Below the pieces are notes generated by a model. It worked only from the letters and a program-made list of their open reading frames with translations, had not been told where the DNA came from and searched no databases. Of a stretch of 64,000 nucleotides of DNA, positions 40,785 to 50,929 are shown one piece after another. This DNA comes from Mycobacterium spongiae (GTDB taxonomy: Bacteria > Actinomycetota > Actinomycetes > Mycobacteriales > Mycobacteriaceae): contig NZ_CP046600.1 of NCBI RefSeq assembly GCF_018278905.1, forward strand, positions 4,340,001 to 4,404,000. The letters are read 5' to 3'. Numbering within the stretch: position 1 is the stretch's first letter; every line of letters begins with the position of its first letter. The position numbers and the translations under genes were made by a program.

Positions 40785-41384
40785 GTGGCCGAACCCGCCC
40801 CCACAACCAGGCGGTGGCCTCATCTGGTGGTCGGCCTGGGCAACCCGGGAGAAAACTACTCCCGGACCCGGCACAACCTCGGATTCATGGTTGCCGACCT
40901 TCTCGCCGCCCGGCTGGGCTCGAAATTCAAGGCGCACAAGCGTTCCGGCGCCGAAGTCGTCGCGGGCCGGCTCGCCGGACATCCGGTGGTATTGGCCAAG
41001 CCACGCTGCTACATGAACGAGTCAGGTCGCCAGTTGGGACCGCTGGCGAAGTTCTACTCGGTGCCCCCCGCCGACATCATCGTTATCCACGACGAGCTCG
41101 ATCTCGAGTTCGGTCGCATCCGGCTCAAGCTGGGCGGCGGCGAGGGCGGCCACAACGGGTTGCGTTCAGTGGCGGCTTCGCTGGGTACCAAAGACTTTCA
41201 GCGGGTACGCATCGGGATCGGCCGGCCGCCTGGACGCAAAGATCCCGCGAAATTCGTGTTGGAGAACTTCACCGCCGCGGAGCGACCCGAGGTCGCCACG
41301 ATCTGCGAGGAGGCTGCCGACGCCGCCGAATTGCTCGTCGACGTGGGACTCGAGCCAGCGCAAAACCGCGTCCACGCCTGGTAG
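40785..41384 (+). CDS. pth: Peptidyl-tRNA hydrolase
   Basis: A 199-residue Pth. [11 protein letters not shown] and the catalytic-histidine segment T-R-H-N-L-G-F lie near residues 15-34, with [10 protein letters not shown] and H-D-E-L-D-L-E-F further on. It recycles tRNA from prematurely released peptidyl-tRNA. The start is GTG 40785. It ends 32 bp before a convergent ccdA-like gene, the boundary of the inserted redox block. Confidence 0.96.
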
Positions 41385-41416
41385 TTCCAGTGCGAGAAAC
41401 ACACCGCGAGGCCCTG

Positions 41417-42298
41417 TCAGCGGGCGCCATCATCGGCCGGCAACGAGCGCTCGCCGCGCCGGCGCACTGCGCCCCACCCGATCGCGATCGCAGTCAGCAC
41501 AACCAGCGCGCCAAGCATTGGCCAAATACCTAGGGCGTCGACATGGCGTGCGAGCCAACCCTGCACTAACCCCGCGGTCCTGACGATCGGGTCATCTGGG
41601 CTGGCGTCGGTGAAGAACAGGCGGATTTCGTAGTAGCCGTAATACACGACGTACAGCCCGGTCAACAAGACGATCGCGCCGGCGATCCTGCTGGCATGCG
41701 GGAGAATTCGGCGAAGGCCGCCCGCCGCAGCGGAGCCAGCAAGGGCAACAACCAGCGCGGCCACCCCGACGGTGATGGCCATTCCGGTGGCATACGCAAG
41801 GAAGGCCACGACACCGGTGAACATTGATCCCCGTTTGAACGTCATGCTGATCACGGCGAGAAAAGGCGCGATCGTGCATGACAGCGAGGCGATGGCGTAG
41901 CCCACGCCGTAGCCGTACATCGAGCGCAGCCGCGCGGTGGGCGTACCCACAAACGCCTTGGGCAGCATCACGGTGAGCGATTTTCCCACCAACAGCCACA
42001 CCCCCAGCGTCACCAGCAGTGCGCCGATGATCACGGTAGCGAACGGCAGGTAGCGCTGCGCGGAGGCGATCAACGGCGAGATCAGCACCCCGAAGATGCC
42101 GAACACCGTGACGAATCCGGCGGACATGGCCACGGTTGCCGCTCCCGCACGGGCCAGCACCACCGCGCGTGACGACTCCTCGTTGCCGCCCGCGATCACC
42201 AAACTCAGATAACCCGGCAGAAAGGCAAAGCCGCACGGATTCAGCGCTGCGACCAACCCCGCCCCGAGAGCGAATCCGATGGCGGTGGTGTCGATCAC
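41417..42298 (-). CDS. CcdA/DsbD-type thiol-disulfide transmembrane reductase
   Basis: A 293-residue protein with about six to seven membrane helices. The two membrane-buried redox cysteines are in A-L-N-P-C-G-F (Cys22) and L-S-C-T-I-A-P (Cys141), the CcdA signature. It would pass electrons from cytosolic thioredoxin/mycoredoxin to the DsbF-like lipoprotein across the membrane. GTG 42298 overlaps the dsbF stop by 4 bp. The frame continues upstream into dsbF but is rejected because the P-C-G-F helix starts here. Confidence 0.92.
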   Translation of the reverse strand: MIDTTAIGFALGAGLVAALNPCGFAFLPGYLSLVIAGGNEESSRAVVLARAGAATVAMSAGFVTVFGIFGVLISPLIASAQRYLPFATVIIGALLVTLGVWLLVGKSLTVMLPKAFVGTPTARLRSMYGYGVGYAIASLSCTIAPFLAVISMTFKRGSMFTGVVAFLAYATGMAITVGVAALVVALAGSAAAGGLRRILPHASRIAGAIVLLTGLYVVYYGYYEIRLFFTDASPDDPIVRTAGLVQGWLARHVDALGIWPMLGALVVLTAIAIGWGAVRRRGERSLPADDGAR

Positions 42299-42843
42299 TG
42301 GTTCGCTAGGGCGGTTACCCGCTCGGTCAGGTCCGCCTCCGACACCCGCCCTTTGACGACGTCGATGCCGCCGTCGGACCGAACGAACGCATACGCGGGT
42401 TGTTGCGTGACGCCGAACTTCGCCCAGACCGACCCATCGGTGTCGGCCAACTGGGTAAATCCGTTCACCGAGTACCTGTCGACGAATTCGCGCATGGCCG
42501 GCACCTGATCCAACCCGCCGACACCGACAAAAGTCACGGTCGGGTGCGAGACCGCGACCTCGCTGACACCGTGCGCTTCGCCCTGACACGTCGGGCACCA
42601 CGGCGCCCAGAACCACAACACCGCCGGCCTGCCCAACAAGCTTTCCCCGCGGAAATCTTGCCCATCAAGGGTTTTGGCGGTGAACTGCAGCTGCACGGGA
42701 ACCGTTCGGGCCATAGGCCCTTGGCCGACGACCCCCGATGCGGTCGGCGACGCCGCTGACGGCTCCGAGTGCGAACCGCACGCGACGAGCACCAGCGCGG
42801 CAACCGCGACGGCGCCCATCGATCGCAGGTAGCTCGCGATCAT
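42295..42843 (-). CDS. dsbF: Thioredoxin-like lipoprotein DsbF
   Basis: A 182-residue TlpA/DsbE-like protein, the length I recall for Rv1677/DsbF. Lipobox L-V-A-C gives lipidated Cys22, and active site W-C-P-T-C (Cys83, Cys86) lies in a thioredoxin fold with cis-Pro in Q-Q-P-A-Y. It acts outside the membrane in disulfide exchange. It overlaps both neighbours by 4 bp, forming a three-gene operon with the peroxiredoxin-like and CcdA-like genes; CcdA is its probable electron donor. Confidence 0.93.
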   Translation of the reverse strand: MIASYLRSMGAVAVAALVLVACGSHSEPSAASPTASGVVGQGPMARTVPVQLQFTAKTLDGQDFRGESLLGRPAVLWFWAPWCPTCQGEAHGVSEVAVSHPTVTFVGVGGLDQVPAMREFVDRYSVNGFTQLADTDGSVWAKFGVTQQPAYAFVRSDGGIDVVKGRVSEADLTERVTALANQ

Positions 42844-43409
42844 CGAGAGCTACCAAGCGAACGCTGGATGTTCAGCAGTTCAGCTACCGACCATTGATCG
42901 TCGGCGTAACGACCATAGTGCACGGCCACCACCGTTCCATCGGGATCGATCAGAAAGTCGGCCGGCAAACCCAAGTGTGTGCTGCCATCGCCCAGCGTGA
43001 CACCGGCCCGGTCGGGATCGTTGCGATGCAACATCGCCGTCCCGCCGCGCATCGCGGCCCACCACGATCGTGGATCGGCCACCGCGCGCAATCCCGTCTC
43101 GACCCCGAATTCGCGGTAGTGCACGCGGTCGGGATCAGCGATCACCGCGAACGGCAGCAAGGTGTGATAGCCCCGCAGCTCCTCGACCGGCGAGTGGAAG
43201 AACACCACCTCGGTGATGCCGGCGTCGGAAACCTCTGGATGCCGGTCGGCGAAACTACGTAGATGCAGATGGCAGATCGGACAGCCTGCGAACCGCCGGA
43301 ACTGCAGATGTGTCCGTCCGGTCGACGCAGGAACCTCCACCGACTGGCCGGTGATGGTCTCGAGGCGCCGTACTGGAACGGCTGCACCGCTGGACAATTG
43401 GGTAGCCAT
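42840..43409 (-). CDS. Peroxiredoxin/AhpC-TSA-like protein (Rv1676-like)
   Basis: A 189-residue thioredoxin-fold protein of the AhpC/TSA-like group with a C-P-I-C motif (Cys43, Cys46) instead of the usual single peroxidatic T-x-x-C. It has no signal peptide, so it is cytosolic. It is likely a thiol peroxidase or disulfide reductase. It is first gene of the operon with dsbF and ccdA, overlapping dsbF by 4 bp. In H37Rv, Rv1676 also precedes dsbF but at another chromosomal site, next to cmr; all three occur in this block. Confidence 0.88.
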   Translation of the reverse strand: MATQLSSGAAVPVRRLETITGQSVEVPASTGRTHLQFRRFAGCPICHLHLRSFADRHPEVSDAGITEVVFFHSPVEELRGYHTLLPFAVIADPDRVHYREFGVETGLRAVADPRSWWAAMRGGTAMLHRNDPDRAGVTLGDGSTHLGLPADFLIDPDGTVVAVHYGRYADDQWSVAELLNIQRSLGSSR

Positions 43410-43547
43410 CGCCCCACCCTACCGACCCAGGGCGCACCCCTGACCGACTGTCTGTCAGCCCGCTGACAGTGTGCGCAACGGCGATCCCAGCCCTGTCACG
43501 GCGCCGACAACACCCAAGCCCCGCACGCTGTGTCACCCTGGTTGCGA

Positions 43548-43573
43548 AGAGGAGCCCCCGAGAGGAGCCCCCG
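43548..43573 (+). repeat. Tandem 13-bp duplication of the ribosome-binding region
   Basis: AGAGGAGCCCCCG is repeated exactly twice (43548-43560 and 43561-43573), directly before the GTG start of the HAD gene. Each copy contains the Shine-Dalgarno-like GAGGAG; only the second is well spaced (6 nt). Confidence 0.85.
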
Positions 43574-44269
43574 GTGGTTCATCGCCCGCACACCGTCGTC
43601 TTCGATGTCGTCGAGACGTTGATGACGTTGGAACCGTTGCGCCGGCGCTTTGTCGAGACGGGTTTGCCTTCCTCCGCGGTAGAGCGGTGGTTTGACCGGA
43701 TGTTGCGCGACGGTATGGCGTTGACGCTTGCCGGTGGCTATCAGCCGTTCCCTACGGTGGCCGAGTCCGCGCTGCGTGTCATTGGCGGCGCTCATATCGG
43801 CGACGACGAGGTGGACTACATTCTCGGCGGCTTGGGGTCGCTGCCGGCTCAACCCGATGCCGAACCGGCGATGAGGCTCCTGGCAGATGCCGGGCTACCG
43901 ATGGTATGCCTGACCAACGGGGCCAGCGAGGCCACCGCGGCATTCCTGGATCGCACCGGGCTCAACCGCTTCGTCGATCGGGTGATCAGCGTGGCCGAAG
44001 TACGGATGTGGAAGCCGGGGCTCGCCGTCTACCAGCACGCCCTGTCACGCATCGGCCGTTCGGGCGACGACGTGGCGTTGGTGGCTGTGCACGCCTTCGA
44101 CTGCCACGGCGCACATGCGGCCGGGCTGACCACGGGCTGGGCCGCGCGATTGGAGAAGCACTACCCGAAGATCTTCACCGCTGCCGATGTGATCGGTGCC
44201 GATCTCGTCGACGTGGTCACTGGGTTGATCGCGCTGCCCGACCGTCGGGCGGCGGCAGATGATCGGTAA
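43574..44269 (+). CDS. HAD-superfamily hydrolase, haloacid dehalogenase type II-like
   Basis: A 231-residue HAD enzyme. Motif I V-F-D-V-V-E-T-L has the nucleophile Asp near residue 9, motif II L-T-N-G-A near 115, motif III lysine M-W-K-P-G, and a motif IV region V-A-V-H-A-F-D-C-H-G-A. This pattern fits L-2-haloacid dehalogenase/phosphatase-like proteins; the substrate is unclear. GTG 43574 follows a duplicated GAGGAG site. It is divergent from the peroxiredoxin-like operon. Confidence 0.85.
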   Translation: MVHRPHTVVFDVVETLMTLEPLRRRFVETGLPSSAVERWFDRMLRDGMALTLAGGYQPFPTVAESALRVIGGAHIGDDEVDYILGGLGSLPAQPDAEPAMRLLADAGLPMVCLTNGASEATAAFLDRTGLNRFVDRVISVAEVRMWKPGLAVYQHALSRIGRSGDDVALVAVHAFDCHGAHAAGLTTGWAARLEKHYPKIFTAADVIGADLVDVVTGLIALPDRRAAADDR

Positions 44270-44335
44270 ACCCCGGGAGTAGTACTGCGAGCTGGACGGC
44301 AGCATGTCACTCGACGAGGAGATCGTCACCAACGG

Positions 44336-44695
44336 TCAGGCGGTCTCACCGCCCTGCACGGCGCGGATCACCCGTGACCACCAGCGCGGCCGCCCGCGGT
44401 CACGTCGACTCGAGAGCATCTCGCTAGCGCGGTCGGGGAACTCACGTGCCACCGCGGCAGCGACCTCGCGCACACTCGGATTGACCAGGGCCACGCCGCC
44501 GACGAACACCGTCGGAACGGTTTCGTCACCACCGGTGACCGCGCGGACACGCTCGGCGGCACCCGGGTCCTTCCAGATGTCGATCTCGGTCGTTGGGATG
44601 CCGCGTCGACGCAGCCCATGACGCAGCTTCACACAGAACGGACATCCCGGCCGCCACAACACCTCGACCCCATCGACATAGCCGGCACGACTCAT
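44336..44695 (-). CDS. Mycoredoxin / glutaredoxin-like protein
   Basis: A 119-residue glutaredoxin-fold protein with active site C-P-F-C (Cys18, Cys21), the T-V-P-T-V-F cis-Pro loop and a G-G-V-A-L glycine pair. The C-terminal 30 residues are basic and include W-W-S-R-V-I. In mycobacteria such proteins use mycothiol. It sits 14 bp downstream of the DUF302 lipoprotein gene, so the two are probably one transcript. Confidence 0.9.
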   Translation of the reverse strand: MSRAGYVDGVEVLWRPGCPFCVKLRHGLRRRGIPTTEIDIWKDPGAAERVRAVTGGDETVPTVFVGGVALVNPSVREVAAAVAREFPDRASEMLSSRRDRGRPRWWSRVIRAVQGGETA

Positions 44696-44709
44696 ATGCT
44701 GCTCCCGGT

Positions 44710-45678
44710 CTACTGTTTCGCCGCGGCTTCGGCGATTGCGTGGACTTCTTGCGATAGCTGCCGTCCGGCATCGCTCAGCGCGGGATCGACCGCGGTGAAC
44801 ATCGGCGCGGGATCGAAGTAGCTGATGTGCGCGGGGCTGCGGCCGTCAGACCACACGTGCACCCGCCCGGGAACCACCGCGGCGATCGCTTGAGTGGCGC
44901 CAAAAAGCGTCGTGCCCATCTGCGGATCACCGACAAAGAAACTGTGCGCACGCTGCGATTGCAGCCCGATCGCCTCCAGGCGAGTTTCCTGGTTCACGTC
45001 GCCGAGGATGGTCATCCCGTGCTCGGCGGCCGCATCATGCAGCGAACCAATCGTTGCTTCGAACGAACCCACCGCATCGACCGTGATGAACGTCGTCTCG
45101 ACCGCGGTTGTTGTCGTTGGGCCGCCGCCGCCCGCCGCGGCTTCGGCAATCGTGCGGATCGCTTGCGATACCTGTTGTCCGCCATCGCCAAGATCCGGAT
45201 CGACGGCCGCGAACTCCGGCGCTGGATCAAAGTAGCTGATGTGCGCTGGACCATCGCCGTCCACCCAGACGCTGACCCGCACCGGAATCACCGCGCCGAT
45301 CGCCTGCGTGGACTCGAAGAATGTCTTGCCGATCTTCGGATTGCCCACAAAGAAACTGTGCGCACCGGGCAATTGCAGTCCGGTAGCCGCCAGCTCGGCG
45401 TCCTGATTGACATCGCCGACGATCATCATCCCGTTGTCGGCGGCCGCCTTGTGCAACGCATCCACCGTCGCCTCGAAATTTTGGCCGGAGGCGTAGCTGA
45501 TGAACGTCGTCGAAACGGCCCGCGGCGCATGTGCCGATTCAGCATCGCCGGCCGCCGCTGCACTCGTTGATTGCCCGGTGCCACCGTCACTTCCGCCGGT
45601 GCAGCCAGCCACCAGGAAAGCGACGACCGCCGCGCCGGCGACGAGCCGGGCGACTACCGGGCGTGATGCGAACGACAT
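44710..45678 (-). CDS. Lipoprotein with two DUF302 domains
   Basis: A 322-residue lipoprotein. Lipobox V-A-G-C gives Cys26; two homologous DUF302 domains follow (about 50-175 and 180-322), each with T-T-F-I, a D-V-N-Q segment, H-S-F-F-V-G-(N/D)-P and H-I-S-Y-F-D-P-A-P. Single DUF302 proteins are common near oxidative or metal-stress genes and their function is unknown. ATG 45678 has GGGAGCAG upstream; the longer frame is rejected because this start begins the signal peptide. It is co-oriented with the mycoredoxin gene and divergent from the CRP-family gene. Confidence 0.88.
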   Translation of the reverse strand: MSFASRPVVARLVAGAAVVAFLVAGCTGGSDGGTGQSTSAAAAGDAESAHAPRAVSTTFISYASGQNFEATVDALHKAAADNGMMIVGDVNQDAELAATGLQLPGAHSFFVGNPKIGKTFFESTQAIGAVIPVRVSVWVDGDGPAHISYFDPAPEFAAVDPDLGDGGQQVSQAIRTIAEAAAGGGGPTTTTAVETTFITVDAVGSFEATIGSLHDAAAEHGMTILGDVNQETRLEAIGLQSQRAHSFFVGDPQMGTTLFGATQAIAAVVPGRVHVWSDGRSPAHISYFDPAPMFTAVDPALSDAGRQLSQEVHAIAEAAAKQ

Positions 45679-45930
45679 AGATGCTGCTCCCTTCGGTATT
45701 CGATGCGGACGACGCTGCGGCAGCGGGAACTGCGGAAGCGACAAGACATCATCGGGGCCAGCCCCGTATCGGTGAACCAGACCATTGGACCATCAGCTCG
45801 GTTGACCTTCGTCGCTCCCTGATGTCGATTCGCTCGGCATCCTTGTGGGGCAGCTAACCACGGACGGGCGCAACTCGGGAACAATTGTCAGCGCGATGAC
45901 AGCATCGCCTCCCTGCCCGGACGGCCTCGG

Positions 45931-45990
45931 AGGTCTGAGCAGGTCTGGGAAAGTCGGGGAAAGTCTGGGAAAGTCGGGGAAGGTCTAGGA
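45931..45990 (+). repeat. 10-bp-periodic repeat in the leader of the CRP-family gene
   Basis: Six consecutive 10-bp units fit the pattern A(A/G)GTC(T/G)GGGA with one or two mismatches in the outer ones; the four central units alternate T and G. It ends 24 bp before the ATG of the regulator gene. One unit per helical turn could place protein sites on one face, or allow slippage. The rest of the 335-bp gap 45679-46013 shows no gene. Confidence 0.75.
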
Positions 45991-46013
45991 GGGCCTAGAG
46001 AGGACCTCGGCGA

Positions 46014-46751
46014 ATGATGTCAGACCGGCCGGTGGGCCCGATCCGACATCTCATGCACGCGGTGAGCGGTGGTCCGCACGCGTCCGAGGCCCAGATGCGC
46101 CACGCCGCGTGGATTGCGCGCTGCGTCGGCCGTGGCGCATCGGCACCACTGCATTCCGATGACCTGTCCGCACTCGCCGGGACACTTCGGGCGGTGGAAT
46201 TCGTTCCTGGGACGGTGGTGTTTTCTGCCGACCATGATGCGAACGGGGTATGGGTTGTCCGGCAGGGCCTGATCGAACTCGCGGTTGGCTCTGGGCGACG
46301 GCGCGCTGTCGTGGATGTTCTTCGCCCCGGCGACGTCGACGGTGACATTCCCCTATTGCTCAACATGCCACTGGCCTATACAGCCCGCGCGTTGACCGAT
46401 TCGACGTGCCTGTTCTTGGACCGGAACGCTTTCGAGCAGCTCCTCGCCACTCATCCGGCCATCTCCCGACGGTGGCTGTCGAGTGTGGCACAACGTGTTT
46501 CGGCCGGCCAAGCCCGGTTGATTGGACTGCTCGGCCGGCCCCTGCCCGCGCAGGTGGCCCAGCTCCTGCTCGACGAGGCCACCGAGATGCGTGTCGAACT
46601 TGCCCAACGGACCCTGGCGGCCATGCTCGGGGCGCAGCGTCCGTCGATCAACAAGATCCTCAAAGAGTTTGAGCGGGATCGGTTGGTCAGTGTCGGATAT
46701 GCCGTCATCGAGATCACCGACCCGGACGGGTTGCGCGCTCGTGCGCAGTGA
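46014..46751 (+). CDS. cmr: CRP/FNR-family regulator (Cmr/Rv1675c-like)
   Basis: A 245-residue regulator. The cyclic-nucleotide-binding-type beta-barrel (about 35-150, with P-G-T-V-V-F and [10 protein letters not shown]) is followed by a dimer helix and a C-terminal winged HTH whose recognition region reads [16 protein letters not shown]. No FNR-type cysteine cluster is present. It is the length of Cmr (Rv1675c), a cAMP-responsive regulator in M. tuberculosis; orthology is inferred. It is placed upstream of the radical SAM gene and divergent from the DUF302 gene. Confidence 0.88.
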
Positions 46752-46859
46752 GGTGTCGGTGGGAACGGGTGGATTGTCCGGCGGCTGACACTTGGCTACC
46801 GCGCCCGAAACGCGCGGTGATGGGGTAGCTGCACGGCCACAAGGAAGTGAGGGCATCGG

Positions 46860-48443
46860 GTGACAACGGTGAAGCGGGACAGCGATGAGGTGTTCGTCGA
46901 ATACACCAAGAGCATCTGCCCGGTGTGCAAGGTGGTGGTGGACGCGCAGGTCAACATCCGCGACGGCAAGGTGTTCCTGCGCAAGCGATGCCATGACCAC
47001 GGCCGTTTCGAGGCCCTGGTTTACGGGGACGCCCAGATGTACATGGATTCCGCCCGCTTCAACAAGCCGGGCACGATCCCGCTGCATTTTCAGACCGAAA
47101 TCCGAGACGGCTGCCCCAGCGACTGCGGGCTGTGCCCCGATCACAAACAGCACGCCTGCCTGGGTCTGATCGAGGTCAACAGCGGCTGCAATCTGGACTG
47201 CCCGATCTGCTTCGCCGACTCCGGTCACCACAGCGACGGATACGCGATCAGCGCGGCCGACTGTGAGCGGATGCTGGACGCCCTCGTGGCGGCCGAGGGC
47301 GAGCCCGAAGTCGTGATGTTCTCCGGCGGCGAACCGACCATTCACAAGCAGATCCTCGATTTCGTCGACGCCGCCCAGGCGCGACCGATCAGGACGGTCG
47401 TCATCAATACCAACGGGATCCGGCTGGCGTCCGACCGGCGCTTCATCGATCAGCTCGCCGAACGCAACCGCCCCGGCCGCCCCGTTCACATCTACCTGCA
47501 GTTCGACGGGCTCGACGAGGGAACCCACCGCCAGCTGCGGGGCCGTGATTTGCGGGAAGTGAAGCAGCGCGCCCTTGACAACTGCGCGGCGGCGACACTC
47601 AGCGTCACTCTGGTCGCGGCTGTGGAGCGGGGCGTGAACGAGCATGAACTCGGTGCCGTTATTCGCCACGGCATGGCAGCACCCGCGGTGCAGTCGGTGG
47701 TGTTTCAGCCGGTCACCCACGCCGGCCGGCATGTGCAGTTCGACCCATTGACCCGGTTGACCAACCCCGACATCATCGCCGGCATTGCCGCACAGCTGCC
47801 GGATTGGTTTGCCGCCAGCGACTTCTTCCCGGTGCCGTGCTGTTTTCCGACCTGCCGATCGATCACCTACCTACTCACCGATGGTGAGCATGCGGTCGCG
47901 ATCCCGCGGCTGCTCGATGTCGAGGATTATCTTGATTACGTCTCCAACCGGGTCATCCCCGATCTAGCGATCCGCGAGGCGCTTGAAAAGCTGTGGTCCG
48001 CCTCCGCGGTGCTGGGCACCGAAGAAACCGCACGACCGCTGGAAAAAGCGGCGCGAGCGCTCAATTGCGCCGACGCGTGCGGCGTCGACCTGCCCGAGGC
48101 GCTGCAGCATCTCACCGATCGGGTTTTTGCGGTCGTGATCCAGGATTTCCAGGATCCATACACCCTCAACGTCAAACAGCTGATGAAGTGCTGCGTGCAG
48201 CAGATCACCCCGGACGGGCGGCTGATCCCGTTCTGCGCATACAACTCGGTCGGATACCGGGAGCAGGTCCGCGAGCAGCTCACCGGCGTTGCGGTGCCCG
48301 ATATTGTGCCTAACGCTGCGCCGCTGGCCGCGATGCTCGCCGACTCACCTCACGGATCCAAGATGGCCGACTCGGACGGCATGCAGCGCAACGGAACTAC
48401 GCGCGATGCCACGAACACCGGACGCCGAGCCGTACGCCAATGA
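46860..48443 (+). CDS. Cysteine-rich radical SAM protein, COG1964 / tetraether-synthase-like
   Basis: A 527-residue radical SAM enzyme. An N-terminal zinc-ribbon or rubredoxin-like motif C-P-V-C (20, 23) with C-H-D-H-G (44) comes first; then a cluster C-P-S-D-C-G-L-C with Cys85, 89, 92 and Cys100; then the SAM-cluster motif C-N-L-D-C-P-I-C (Cys110, 114, 117) and G-G-E-P (156-159). C-terminal cysteines follow at 327, 328, 332, 444, 445 and 459, enough for further Fe-S clusters. This layout is that of COG1964, the group that includes the archaeal tetraether lipid synthase MJ0619/Tes. GTG 46860 has AAGGAAG upstream. It overlaps the methyltransferase gene by 4 bp. The substrate is unknown; lipid C-C coupling is one hypothesis. 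Confidence 0.85.
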   Translation: MTTVKRDSDEVFVEYTKSICPVCKVVVDAQVNIRDGKVFLRKRCHDHGRFEALVYGDAQMYMDSARFNKPGTIPLHFQTEIRDGCPSDCGLCPDHKQHACLGLIEVNSGCNLDCPICFADSGHHSDGYAISAADCERMLDALVAAEGEPEVVMFSGGEPTIHKQILDFVDAAQARPIRTVVINTNGIRLASDRRFIDQLAERNRPGRPVHIYLQFDGLDEGTHRQLRGRDLREVKQRALDNCAAATLSVTLVAAVERGVNEHELGAVIRHGMAAPAVQSVVFQPVTHAGRHVQFDPLTRLTNPDIIAGIAAQLPDWFAASDFFPVPCCFPTCRSITYLLTDGEHAVAIPRLLDVEDYLDYVSNRVIPDLAIREALEKLWSASAVLGTEETARPLEKAARALNCADACGVDLPEALQHLTDRVFAVVIQDFQDPYTLNVKQLMKCCVQQITPDGRLIPFCAYNSVGYREQVREQLTGVAVPDIVPNAAPLAAMLADSPHGSKMADSDGMQRNGTTRDATNTGRRAVRQ

Positions 48444-49246
48444 CCGAGCCAGCCGAGACGATCAAGGCATGCTGCGCCGAGGCGTATTCCCGCGACGTGG
48501 TGGCGCTCCTGCTTGGCGACTCCTATCATCCCGGGGGTGCGGCGTTGACCCGCGAGCTGGCCCGTCGGTTGGGGTTGCGCTCGGCCGGCGAACGCCGGCG
48601 GGTGGCCGACATCGCGTCCGGGATTGGCGCCACGGCCACGCTGCTCGCCAGCGAATACCACGTGACCGTCGACGGCGTCGATATCAGCGAGGTCAACGTG
48701 AACCGCGCCCGAATCGCGGTCGCCGAGAGCGGGCTCAGTCAACACGTACGATTCCACCACGGCGACGCCGAGGAATTGCCGCTGCCCAACAACACGTTTG
48801 ACGCGCTGGTGTGCGAATGCGCGCTCTGCACCTTTCCGGACAAGGACGCCGCAGCCCGCCAGCTCGCGCGAATCCTGCGCCCCGGCGGACTGGCCGGCAT
48901 CACCGACGTCACCGTCACCGACGCCGGCCTCCCGCAGGAGCTGACGACACTCACGGCGTGGGTCGCCTGCATCGCCGACGCACGCTCGATCAGCGACTAC
49001 ACCGACATCCTCGCCAGGGCGGGACTGTCCACCCGGCACGTCGAGTCACACGACGGGAGTCTGTTGGCGATGATCGACCGCGTCGACGCCCGGATTACCG
49101 CTCTGCGCATCATGGCGCCCACCGTTCTCGCCGACAACGACGTGTCACCCGACTCGGTTCTCGCCTTCACCGCACTCGCACGCGAAGCGGTCAAGGCCGG
49201 GCGGATCGGCTACACGCTCATCATCGCGCACAAGGCCGACGCGTAG
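48440..49246 (+). CDS. Class I SAM-dependent methyltransferase, cysteine-rich
   Basis: A 268-residue methyltransferase with Rossmann motif I V-A-D-I-A-S-G-I-G-A-T-A (55-66), acidic loop G-V-D-I-S (79-83) and motif V-C-E-C-A-L-C (124-130). Cys11-Cys12 and Cys125/127/130 give an arrangement loosely like ArsM-type arsenite methyltransferases, although the usual ArsM cysteine pattern is not clearly met. It is translationally coupled to the radical SAM gene (ATGA overlap) and presumably acts in the same pathway. Confidence 0.87.
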   Translation: MTEPAETIKACCAEAYSRDVVALLLGDSYHPGGAALTRELARRLGLRSAGERRRVADIASGIGATATLLASEYHVTVDGVDISEVNVNRARIAVAESGLSQHVRFHHGDAEELPLPNNTFDALVCECALCTFPDKDAAARQLARILRPGGLAGITDVTVTDAGLPQELTTLTAWVACIADARSISDYTDILARAGLSTRHVESHDGSLLAMIDRVDARITALRIMAPTVLADNDVSPDSVLAFTALAREAVKAGRIGYTLIIAHKADA

Positions 49247-49294
49247 CGGCACGCTGATCCGTTTCTGGGGCGGCTGTGAGGCGTCTGTGCGGCG

Positions 49295-50929
49295 CTACGT
49301 GACCAGGGTGACCGAGTTTGCCCGGCGCAGCTTGCCCGACGGCGTTTTCGGTATGGTCCCCGGACCGAGGACGACGACGTTGCGCGGCCGCACATCAACC
49401 TCGGCGACCACCTCGTGAGCTACTTGGTGCTCGATGCGGCGCACCTCGGCGGGATTTTCAAAGTTGTTCGACTCGACGGCGACGGCGAAGGTTTCCCGCG
49501 AGTGACCGGCGTCCAGCCGTACGGCCACCGCACAACCCGGCCGCACACCCTCGACGCGGCCCGCCGCTCGCTCGATGTCGGTCGGGTAGATATTCCTGCC
49601 GGCCATGATGATGACGTCTTTGACGCGACCACATACCACGACGTGACCGTTCTCCATCCGATACCCGAGGTCGCCGGTGTCATACCAGCCGTGCCCATCC
49701 TGGGCCGGCATGAACCCGCCCATCGTGAGGTAGCCGGGGCTGACCGATTCGCCGCGCAGCTCGATCACTCCAACACCCCGCGACGGCAGCACGTTGCCGT
49801 CCTCGTCGACGATGCGTGCCTGGATACCCTGCAACAGCGGCCCGAGCGACGCCAGCCGGCGAGTGTTGCCCTTACTGGCCGGCACCGCACGGCGCAGTGC
49901 GGCCATAAGGTCGGTGTCCACCTCATCGACGACCAAGCCGGCGCCGCATTCGGAGAACGCCACGGCGAGGGTGATCTCGGCCATGCCGTAGGCCGGCAAG
50001 ATTGCCTGCGGCTTCAGCCCGAACGGCGCGCCAGCGTCGCAGAGGTCCTCGACGTCCGCCGGCTCAACTGGCTCGGCGCCGGAAAGTGCGAAGCGCAAGC
50101 TGGACAGGTCGAACTGGCCGGGCTGGGCCTGCTTTCGCAGCCGCTTGGCGAACAGCGAGTACGCAAAGTTGGGCGCAGCCGTCATCGTCCCCTGGTACTT
50201 GTCGATCAGCTTGGCCCACAGCAGCGTGTCCCGCATGAAGTCCATGGGTGTCACCTTGACCAACTCGCCGCCGAAGTACATCGGCACCGTCAGGAACCCG
50301 ATCATGCCCATGTCGTGGAACAGCGGTAGCCAACTGACCATCACGTCGGTTTCTTCGTTGTACTCCGCGCTGATGTACATCGCCTCGAGATTGGCGAAGA
50401 GGTTGCGGTGGGTGATCTGGACTGCCTTCGGCGATCCGGTGGATCCTGACGTCAATTGCATGAGCGCCAGATCGTCCTCCCCGGTCTCGATGGGGTCGAT
50501 CGGGTCCGACGCCAGCAGCTGATCAACGGTCAGCACCGTGATGCCGCGCTCTTCCAGCACTGGCACGGCCGCGAGGAACGGGTCGGAGACGACGACCGCC
50601 TTAGCCTCGATCATGTCGACAACGGTCGTCGTGTCCTCGGCCCACAAAACCAAGTCGGTGCGGGGGGTGGGCTGATGCAGCATGGTCAGGCTGGCGCCGC
50701 GAATCCATAGCCCTTGGGCAGTCGGGGCAATCTCGACCGGGGCGCCGGCCAGCACACCGACCGCGTCGCCGTGACCCACCCCGAGCGCAGCCAACCCACC
50801 GGCAATCCGGCGGGCGCGCTCATGCACCTCGCCCCAGGTGTGTCGGACCGCGGTGTGCGGCTCACCGGTGACCATGCCCTTGGTGCTCTCGCGGGCGTTG
50901 CGGAACATCTTTTGGGTAAACCTGCTCAC
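49295..50929 (-). CDS. pks16: Pks16, fatty-acid adenylating enzyme
   Basis: A 544-residue ANL-superfamily enzyme, identical in length to H37Rv Pks16 (Rv1013). The P-loop [11 protein letters not shown] lies at about 158-168, P-A-Y-G-M-A-E (A5-type) and Y-D-T-G-D-L-G-Y (A7) follow, and the terminal lysine is in [10 protein letters not shown]. Despite the name it is an acyl-AMP or acyl-CoA ligase, of the FAAL-like type, likely loading a lipid onto CoA or a carrier protein. It converges on the methyltransferase gene and marks the far edge of the inserted block. Confidence 0.93.

Follow-up and report, generated by a model that had tools for sequence, protein, structure and literature searches.

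A distinct family of Tes-fold radical SAM enzymes usually paired with a methyltransferase carrying ArsM-type cysteines

Here, we analysed a window of 64,000 nucleotides of the Mycobacterium spongiae genome (a single contig of 5.58 Mb; NZ_CP046600.1, positions 4,340,001 to 4,404,000) and describe two overlapping genes, which code for a radical S-adenosylmethionine (SAM) enzyme with the fold of the archaeal tetraether synthase Tes, hereafter RSAM, and for a SAM-dependent methyltransferase (MTase). We are highly confident that RSAM represents a distinct family, which is usually coupled to an MTase, and since several hallmarks of the lipid-joining enzyme are missing, the pair probably performs a different chemistry from the joining of lipid tails. 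According to the open reading frame (ORF) listing, the RSAM gene (46860-48443, plus strand, GTG start) codes for 527 amino acids and the MTase gene (48440-49246, plus strand, ATG start) for 268 amino acids. A preliminary description of this DNA had noted two ORFs overlapping by 4 bp; both are present and the overlap consists of the ATGA at positions 48440-48443, through which translation of the two genes is likely coupled. RSAM is matched by the Pfam families Radical_SAM (78 bits) and HMPTM zinc ribbon (62 bits) and the MTase by Methyltransf_25/11. Among the 120 RSAM homologues listed, the closest named relatives are from Mycobacterium, with 84-86% identity, and one further relative shares 98% identity; orthologues from Salinispora and Micromonospora share 74-76% identity. 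An antisense ORF of 459 amino acids (46353-47732, minus strand) runs over the RSAM gene and is probably a by-product of the high G+C content.

The family alignment contained 99 RSAM rows, corresponding to 95 distinct sequences with four genomes entered twice, and rows with fewer than 440 aligned residues or with 400 or fewer amino acids had been dropped beforehand. It was compared with seven rows of a paralogue and with 119 of the best 120 matches to the Tes protein MJ0619, one row of 470 or fewer amino acids having been dropped; these top matches share 52-100% identity with MJ0619 and include no identified crenarchaeal or bacterial Tes. The cysteine groups named in the preliminary description (Cys20/23/44, Cys85/89/92, Cys110/114/117, Cys327/328/332 and Cys444/445/459) are all in place and each is kept in at least 95 of the 99 family rows, a conservation that is not due to chance. 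Cys20/23/44 form a rubredoxin-type site together with His47 and correspond to C9/C12/C33/H36 of MJ0619, the N-cluster residues Cys85/89/92 and His95 correspond to C73/C77/C80/H83, and the radical SAM (RS) cluster cysteines Cys110/114/117 are kept in the family and in Tes alike. Cys100 had been assigned to the N-cluster as well. We consider this unlikely, because the fourth ligand in MJ0619 is a histidine, as given in the available part of PMC9433317, because it is His95 that aligns with this MJ0619 His83, with histidine found here in 119/119 Tes and 98/99 family rows, and because Cys100 is also kept in all seven paralogue rows, which lack the N-cluster cysteines. At the C-terminal end, the preliminary description had placed its cysteines correctly but overlooked Cys403 (95/99 rows) and Cys407 (98/99), which brings the set to eight (327/328/332/403/407/444/445/459). 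All eight are found in 95/99 family rows (91/95 distinct sequences) and in none of the 119 Tes rows, which have three to five cysteines at these positions; only Cys332/444/459, equivalent to MJ0619 338/455/470, are common to all Tes rows. Within the family, the set is incomplete in L087 and L133 (seven cysteines each), L134 (four) and L141 (three). Judged from the sequence, eight cysteines would be enough for two predicted [4Fe-4S] clusters.

RSAM had initially been read as a Tes/COG1964-type enzyme. This holds for the fold and most of the SAM site, but RSAM belongs to a separate family, which has an eight-cysteine C-terminal domain and lacks hallmarks of Tes. RSAM and MJ0619 (PDB 7TOL, 7TOM) are 32% identical and share the whole fold and domain order, the CxxC-x20-CxxH spacing of the rubredoxin-type site, the C-x3-C-x2-C motif plus histidine of the N-cluster, the CxxxCxxC motif of the RS cluster and the three C-terminal cysteines. 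The MJ0619 SAM contacts Tyr195, Asp199, Arg210, Gln268 and Arg275 are kept in 98-99 of the 99 family rows; Ser271 is not kept and is replaced by threonine in 73 rows. With 315.1 bits against the Tes profile NF045702, RSAM stays below the curated cut-off of 450 and is thus not assigned to Tes, and in a tree of 37 rows the family forms a separate clade (support 100/99). The aligned distance from Asp321 to Cys332 is 31-32 residues in 119/119 Tes and 10-11 residues in 99/99 family rows, and the insert of about 20 residues that precedes the first C-terminal cluster cysteine of Tes is accordingly found in 0/99 family rows. Met439, the labile C-cluster ligand of Tes, and Tyr459 are present in 119/119 Tes rows, but in only 2/99 and 0/99 family rows, respectively, and are replaced by Gln428 and Gln448 in the window RSAM; His440, also present in 119/119 Tes rows, is likewise missing. 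Met442 and Tyr461 of the window protein were considered as counterparts of Met439 and Tyr459 and ruled out, as the alignment places Gln428 and Gln448 there. Also unlike Tes, RSAM has five additional conserved C-terminal cysteines, Cys100 and an MTase partner. According to the accessible portion of PMC9433317, Met439 and Tyr459 are dispensable for MJ0619 activity in vitro, so that their loss marks a different family and does not prove a different reaction. RSAM scores best against the TrsS radical SAM (seleno)protein profile NF045646 (336 bits, with almost the full model aligned), a family that is credited to Haft and Tolstoy 2025 (mSystems) in the available text of the review PMC13188914. This comparison was made by profile only, and the score is below the TrsS cut-off of 490; unlike the (seleno)protein, RSAM has no in-frame stop and hence no sign of selenocysteine.

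The MTase was rightly called cysteine-rich in the preliminary description (Cys11, 12, 125, 127, 130 and 177). In an alignment of 92 MTase rows (88 distinct; rows with fewer than 180 aligned residues or lengths outside 200-400 amino acids were dropped), Cys127 and Cys177 are found in 92/92 rows and align with the cysteines of the arsenite methyltransferase ArsM in NC-VINL and GC-IAGAL, which we take to bind arsenic; the usual RSAM partner is therefore an MTase with two cysteines at the arsenic-binding positions of arsenite methyltransferases. Cys11 and Cys12, which resemble the N-terminal cysteine pair of ArsM (NF008823; PDB 5evj), are kept in 90/92 and 91/92 rows, respectively. Unlike ArsM, the MTase lacks the third cysteine (SLGCG) and has an HPGG motif in its place, and its score of 89.5 bits against a cut-off of 263 leaves it outside NF008823. 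The best MTase family is the DVU_1556-family methyltransferase NF045667 with 120.4 bits, also below the cut-off (155); in a related pair, L133, the MTase exceeds this cut-off (158.9 bits). In a structure comparison of the model, the predicted fold was nearest to small-molecule MTases, and no arsenite methyltransferase structure was among the best 50 structural matches. A separate ArsM-like gene is present in the same genome (C1:3094366-3094953; 250 bits against the NF008823 cut-off of 263).

Pairing was assessed in the best 80 of 576 confirmed matches in genome contigs. An MTase homologue is located near RSAM in 77 of these 80 loci, within 400 bp in 76 and about 1.1 kb away in L099. Two of the remaining loci, L121 and L127, stop at a contig end, and the third, the Dehalococcoidia locus L118 (7962-10172), is complete; here, the MTase is absent and a homologue of Lgt, a family whose known reaction is the alkylation of a thiol, begins 10 bp after RSAM. 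Complete RSAM-MTase fusions account for six of the 120 homologues listed, with M. simiae, M. persicum and Mycobacterium sp. ML4 as named hosts, and a seventh homologue is fused to only the first 51 MTase residues. On a Haloarcula plasmid, the pair genes overlap by 1 bp and a redoxin-domain gene is located nearby. The RSAM orthologue is patchy in mycobacteria, being found in 14 of 297 congeneric genomes including that of the window, with two of the copies partial; one named mycobacterial copy of the pair is carried by a plasmid of M. vanbaalenii JOB5. A database protein, P0016, joins RSAM to an AraC-type regulator domain, which could reflect either a genuine fusion or faulty assembly. We found no paper on the RSAM-MTase pair among the top listings of searches limited to open-access papers, and we do not claim that the pairing is unpublished.

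A second radical SAM enzyme with 34% identity to RSAM is encoded in the M. spongiae genome (L002:1459-4210; C1, near 5.19 Mb) downstream of an Lgt homologue. Like RSAM, this paralogue is of the TrsS/Tes type (TrsS 189 and Tes 146 bits, both below cut-off) and has the rubredoxin site and most of the C-terminal cysteines; unlike RSAM, it lacks the N-cluster cysteines (0/7 rows), has no MTase match and has an Lgt homologue close by. This arrangement recurs in 29/29 paralogue loci, a subset of all paralogue matches comprising 28 distinct loci, as L045 and L136 are one place: the Lgt homologue lies within about 1 kb and, in 28 of the 29, precedes the paralogue on the same strand. In all 29 paralogue-linked Lgt homologues, the residue equivalent to Asn146 of E. 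coli Lgt is a cysteine. Near the window-family RSAM, an Lgt homologue was found only in L118 (1/80 loci), in which Asn146 is kept. The available part of PMC13251419 (mBio 2026) notes that M. smegmatis has a second Lgt, MSMEG_5408, which carries N146C and presumably has low Lgt activity; this protein appears to be of the RSAM-linked Lgt type.

The neighbourhood of the pair was surveyed in 30 actinobacterial loci with 149 ORFs, with ORFs called from 80 amino acids upwards and one ORF of 150 dropped for its length (more than 1000 amino acids), and the 25 most frequent of 113 families were considered; the counts are raw and come without a background rate. They include Pyr_redox (11), Crp-type (10), AhpC-TSA/Redoxin/Thioredoxin (6), MauE (6), DUF3179 (6), DUF427 (6), Polyketide_cyc2 (5) and MerR (4). 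In the window, a Crp/Fnr-family regulator (46014-46751, plus strand; cNMP_binding, HTH_Crp_2) is encoded 108 bp upstream of RSAM and possibly acts on the locus; relatives are found near the pair in 10/80 loci, eight of them with 54-77% identity. Three associated genes on the minus strand code for thiol-redox proteins. The first, a TlpA/DsbE-type thioredoxin-fold lipoprotein (42295-42843; Pfam), has relatives near the pair in 13/80 loci, and a close homologue (at least 180 bits) occurs in 12/14 pair-positive and 3/40 pair-negative mycobacteria, a comparison confounded by kinship. The same confounding applies to the co-occurrence of the second, an AhpC/TSA-type protein (42840-43409), which is SelL-related but below the cut-off of that family and resembles a protein encoded on the pair-bearing M. 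vanbaalenii plasmid. The third is a CcdA/DsbD-TM-like membrane protein (41417-42616; DsbD_TM 24.8 bits, below the cut-off of 27.1), whose true start is likely to lie close to 42290, as the ORF in its listed form runs into the TlpA gene; a CcdA is also annotated adjoining the pair in NZ_CP126902. A tblastn count of its relatives near the pair (2/80 loci) was disregarded, as the query had been cut within a codon. A mycoredoxin-like glutaredoxin (44336-44695, minus strand; profile matches) is a neighbour with an unproven link. On the M. vanbaalenii JOB5 plasmid (L138:937-17369), the pair adjoins genes for CcdA, a disulfide oxidoreductase and an Rv1678/Rv1679/Rv1680/Rv1681-family set, with a glutaredoxin-domain gene and a SelL-related redoxin farther off; deiodinase-like and AhpD-like genes are also present. 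The second radical SAM enzyme of this plasmid was considered as ArsS and ruled out, as it belongs to the Rv1681 family. In M. tuberculosis, the Cmr regulator gene runs divergently to the peroxiredoxin-like Rv1676 and to dsbF, as stated in the accessible part of PMC5499769.

Within the window, the pair is located at a variable insertion site (41384-49295) between genes that we take to be pth and pks16. Across 34 mycobacterial genomes, these two genes are 43 bp to 10.6 kb apart, with 7.9 kb here, and the window genome is the only one of the 14 pair-positive genomes with the pair at this site. The site also holds a lipoprotein-like gene with two DUF302 domains (44710-45744), which is present in 9/14 pair-positive and 1/40 pair-negative genomes. 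As seven of these genomes (G015, G056, G073, G090, G157, G218 and G221) have this gene between the pth-like and pks16-like genes and the pair elsewhere, the co-occurrence looks like kinship, and we rejected the DUF302 gene as a functional partner. A small membrane protein with vicinal cysteines (CCVGP/CCLGP) is encoded near the pair in four genera (L050:7038-7442, L082:10414-10845, L084:7446-7877 and L089:10521-10916); it is MerT-like by eye, and the L050 copy has no Pfam match.

The additional cysteines of RSAM, the ArsM-type cysteine pair of the MTase, the one exchange of the MTase for Lgt and the thiol-redox neighbours lead us to propose as the shared product a soft nucleophile, possibly a thiol, which is alkylated by the partner. 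We therefore favour, tentatively, the reading that the pair is a SAM-dependent two-enzyme system for the radical formation of a thiol or another soft atom, followed by methylation. The fold and the cluster set argue that an unreactive carbon of the substrate would lose a hydrogen to the 5'-deoxyadenosyl radical. The resulting substrate radical might then be trapped by an auxiliary Fe-S cluster, in the way known from MJ0619, for which a C-S bond between the substrate and the C-terminal cluster is an observed intermediate according to the available portion of PMC9433317. The product would be freed as a thiol or related soft-atom compound rather than joined to another carbon, and the MTase would methylate the freed atom; in M. 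persicum, M. simiae and similar species, one fused protein would carry out both steps. TlpA/CcdA-type proteins would provide reduced thiols or protect them.

It is possible, if rather doubtful, that a cofactor, a peptide or a protein is matured by the pair: RSAM would alter an unreactive residue or ring, and the MTase would methylate O, N or C in the conventional way. The fold of the MTase, the TlpA/CcdA/MauE-type neighbours and the predicted additional auxiliary clusters, which are presumably common in radical SAM maturases, agree with this, but it leaves the ArsM-type cysteine pair unexplained. These invariant cysteines speak instead for organo-arsenic, -selenium or -mercury chemistry, which would serve detoxification or yield an organometalloid and would resemble that of ArsM with ArsS or ArsL, as do the MerR genes (4/149 ORFs), two ArsR/SmtB metalloregulators above cut-off and one MerA above cut-off out of four FAD reductases tested near the pair. 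We regard this as unlikely, as the 25 commonest families of neighbours include no arsenic efflux or reductase family, the third ArsM cysteine is missing and the genome holds a separate ArsM-like gene; a vicinal-cysteine MerA tail is present in just 5/39 neighbouring FAD reductases and absent from 34, and a general mercury operon was rejected on this ground. The suggestion of the preliminary description, that lipid chains are coupled or lipid tails modified as in Tes and that the MTase methylates a lipid, is improbable given the missing insert, Met439 and Tyr459, the five additional cysteines, a link to PlsY limited to one phylum (in seven loci of Chloroflexota, PlsY lies downstream of the MTase) and Polyketide_cyc2 (cyclase/lipid transport, 5/149 ORFs) as the sole lipid-described family among those 25.

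Building on the favoured reading of soft-atom formation followed by methylation, one might speculate, as a long shot, that there is a class of radical thiolation-capping systems, in which a Tes-fold radical SAM enzyme would break an unactivated C-H bond and sacrifice sulfur of an auxiliary cluster to yield a thiol, and an interchangeable second enzyme would alkylate it, namely the ArsM-like MTase in the window family and, in L118 and the paralogue family, a diacylglyceryl transferase of the Lgt type. If this is true, Tes would be one member of the fold, the step held in common would be the trapping of an alkyl radical by the C-terminal cluster, and the partner would decide the outcome of the reaction.

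The distinction from Tes also suggests a risk for lipid geochemistry, as the RSAM family passes cut-offs of the kind published for Tes homologues. Five archaeal Tes were compared with the family, with the database size set to 1e9. For each of them, limits of E<1e-50 and >20% identity are passed by 99/99 rows, and limits of E<1e-30 and at least 30% identity by 36-98 of the 99, depending on the Tes query; for one query, all nine Chloroflexota rows listed pass the latter (30.3-33.5% identity). Published surveys applied comparable cut-offs, with other Tes sequences as queries, and put forward the resulting bacterial 'Tes homologues' as potential producers of branched tetraethers, as seen in the available parts of PMC8941075 and PMC11868695. 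The family can be separated from Tes by its eight C-terminal cysteines, the lack of the insert and of Met439 and Tyr459, and a nearby MTase. Taken together, a widespread, uncharacterised radical enzyme becomes testable through its partner, natural fusions, hosts that are not pathogenic and a chemical prediction, and a mycobacterial Lgt homologue is linked to a radical SAM enzyme.
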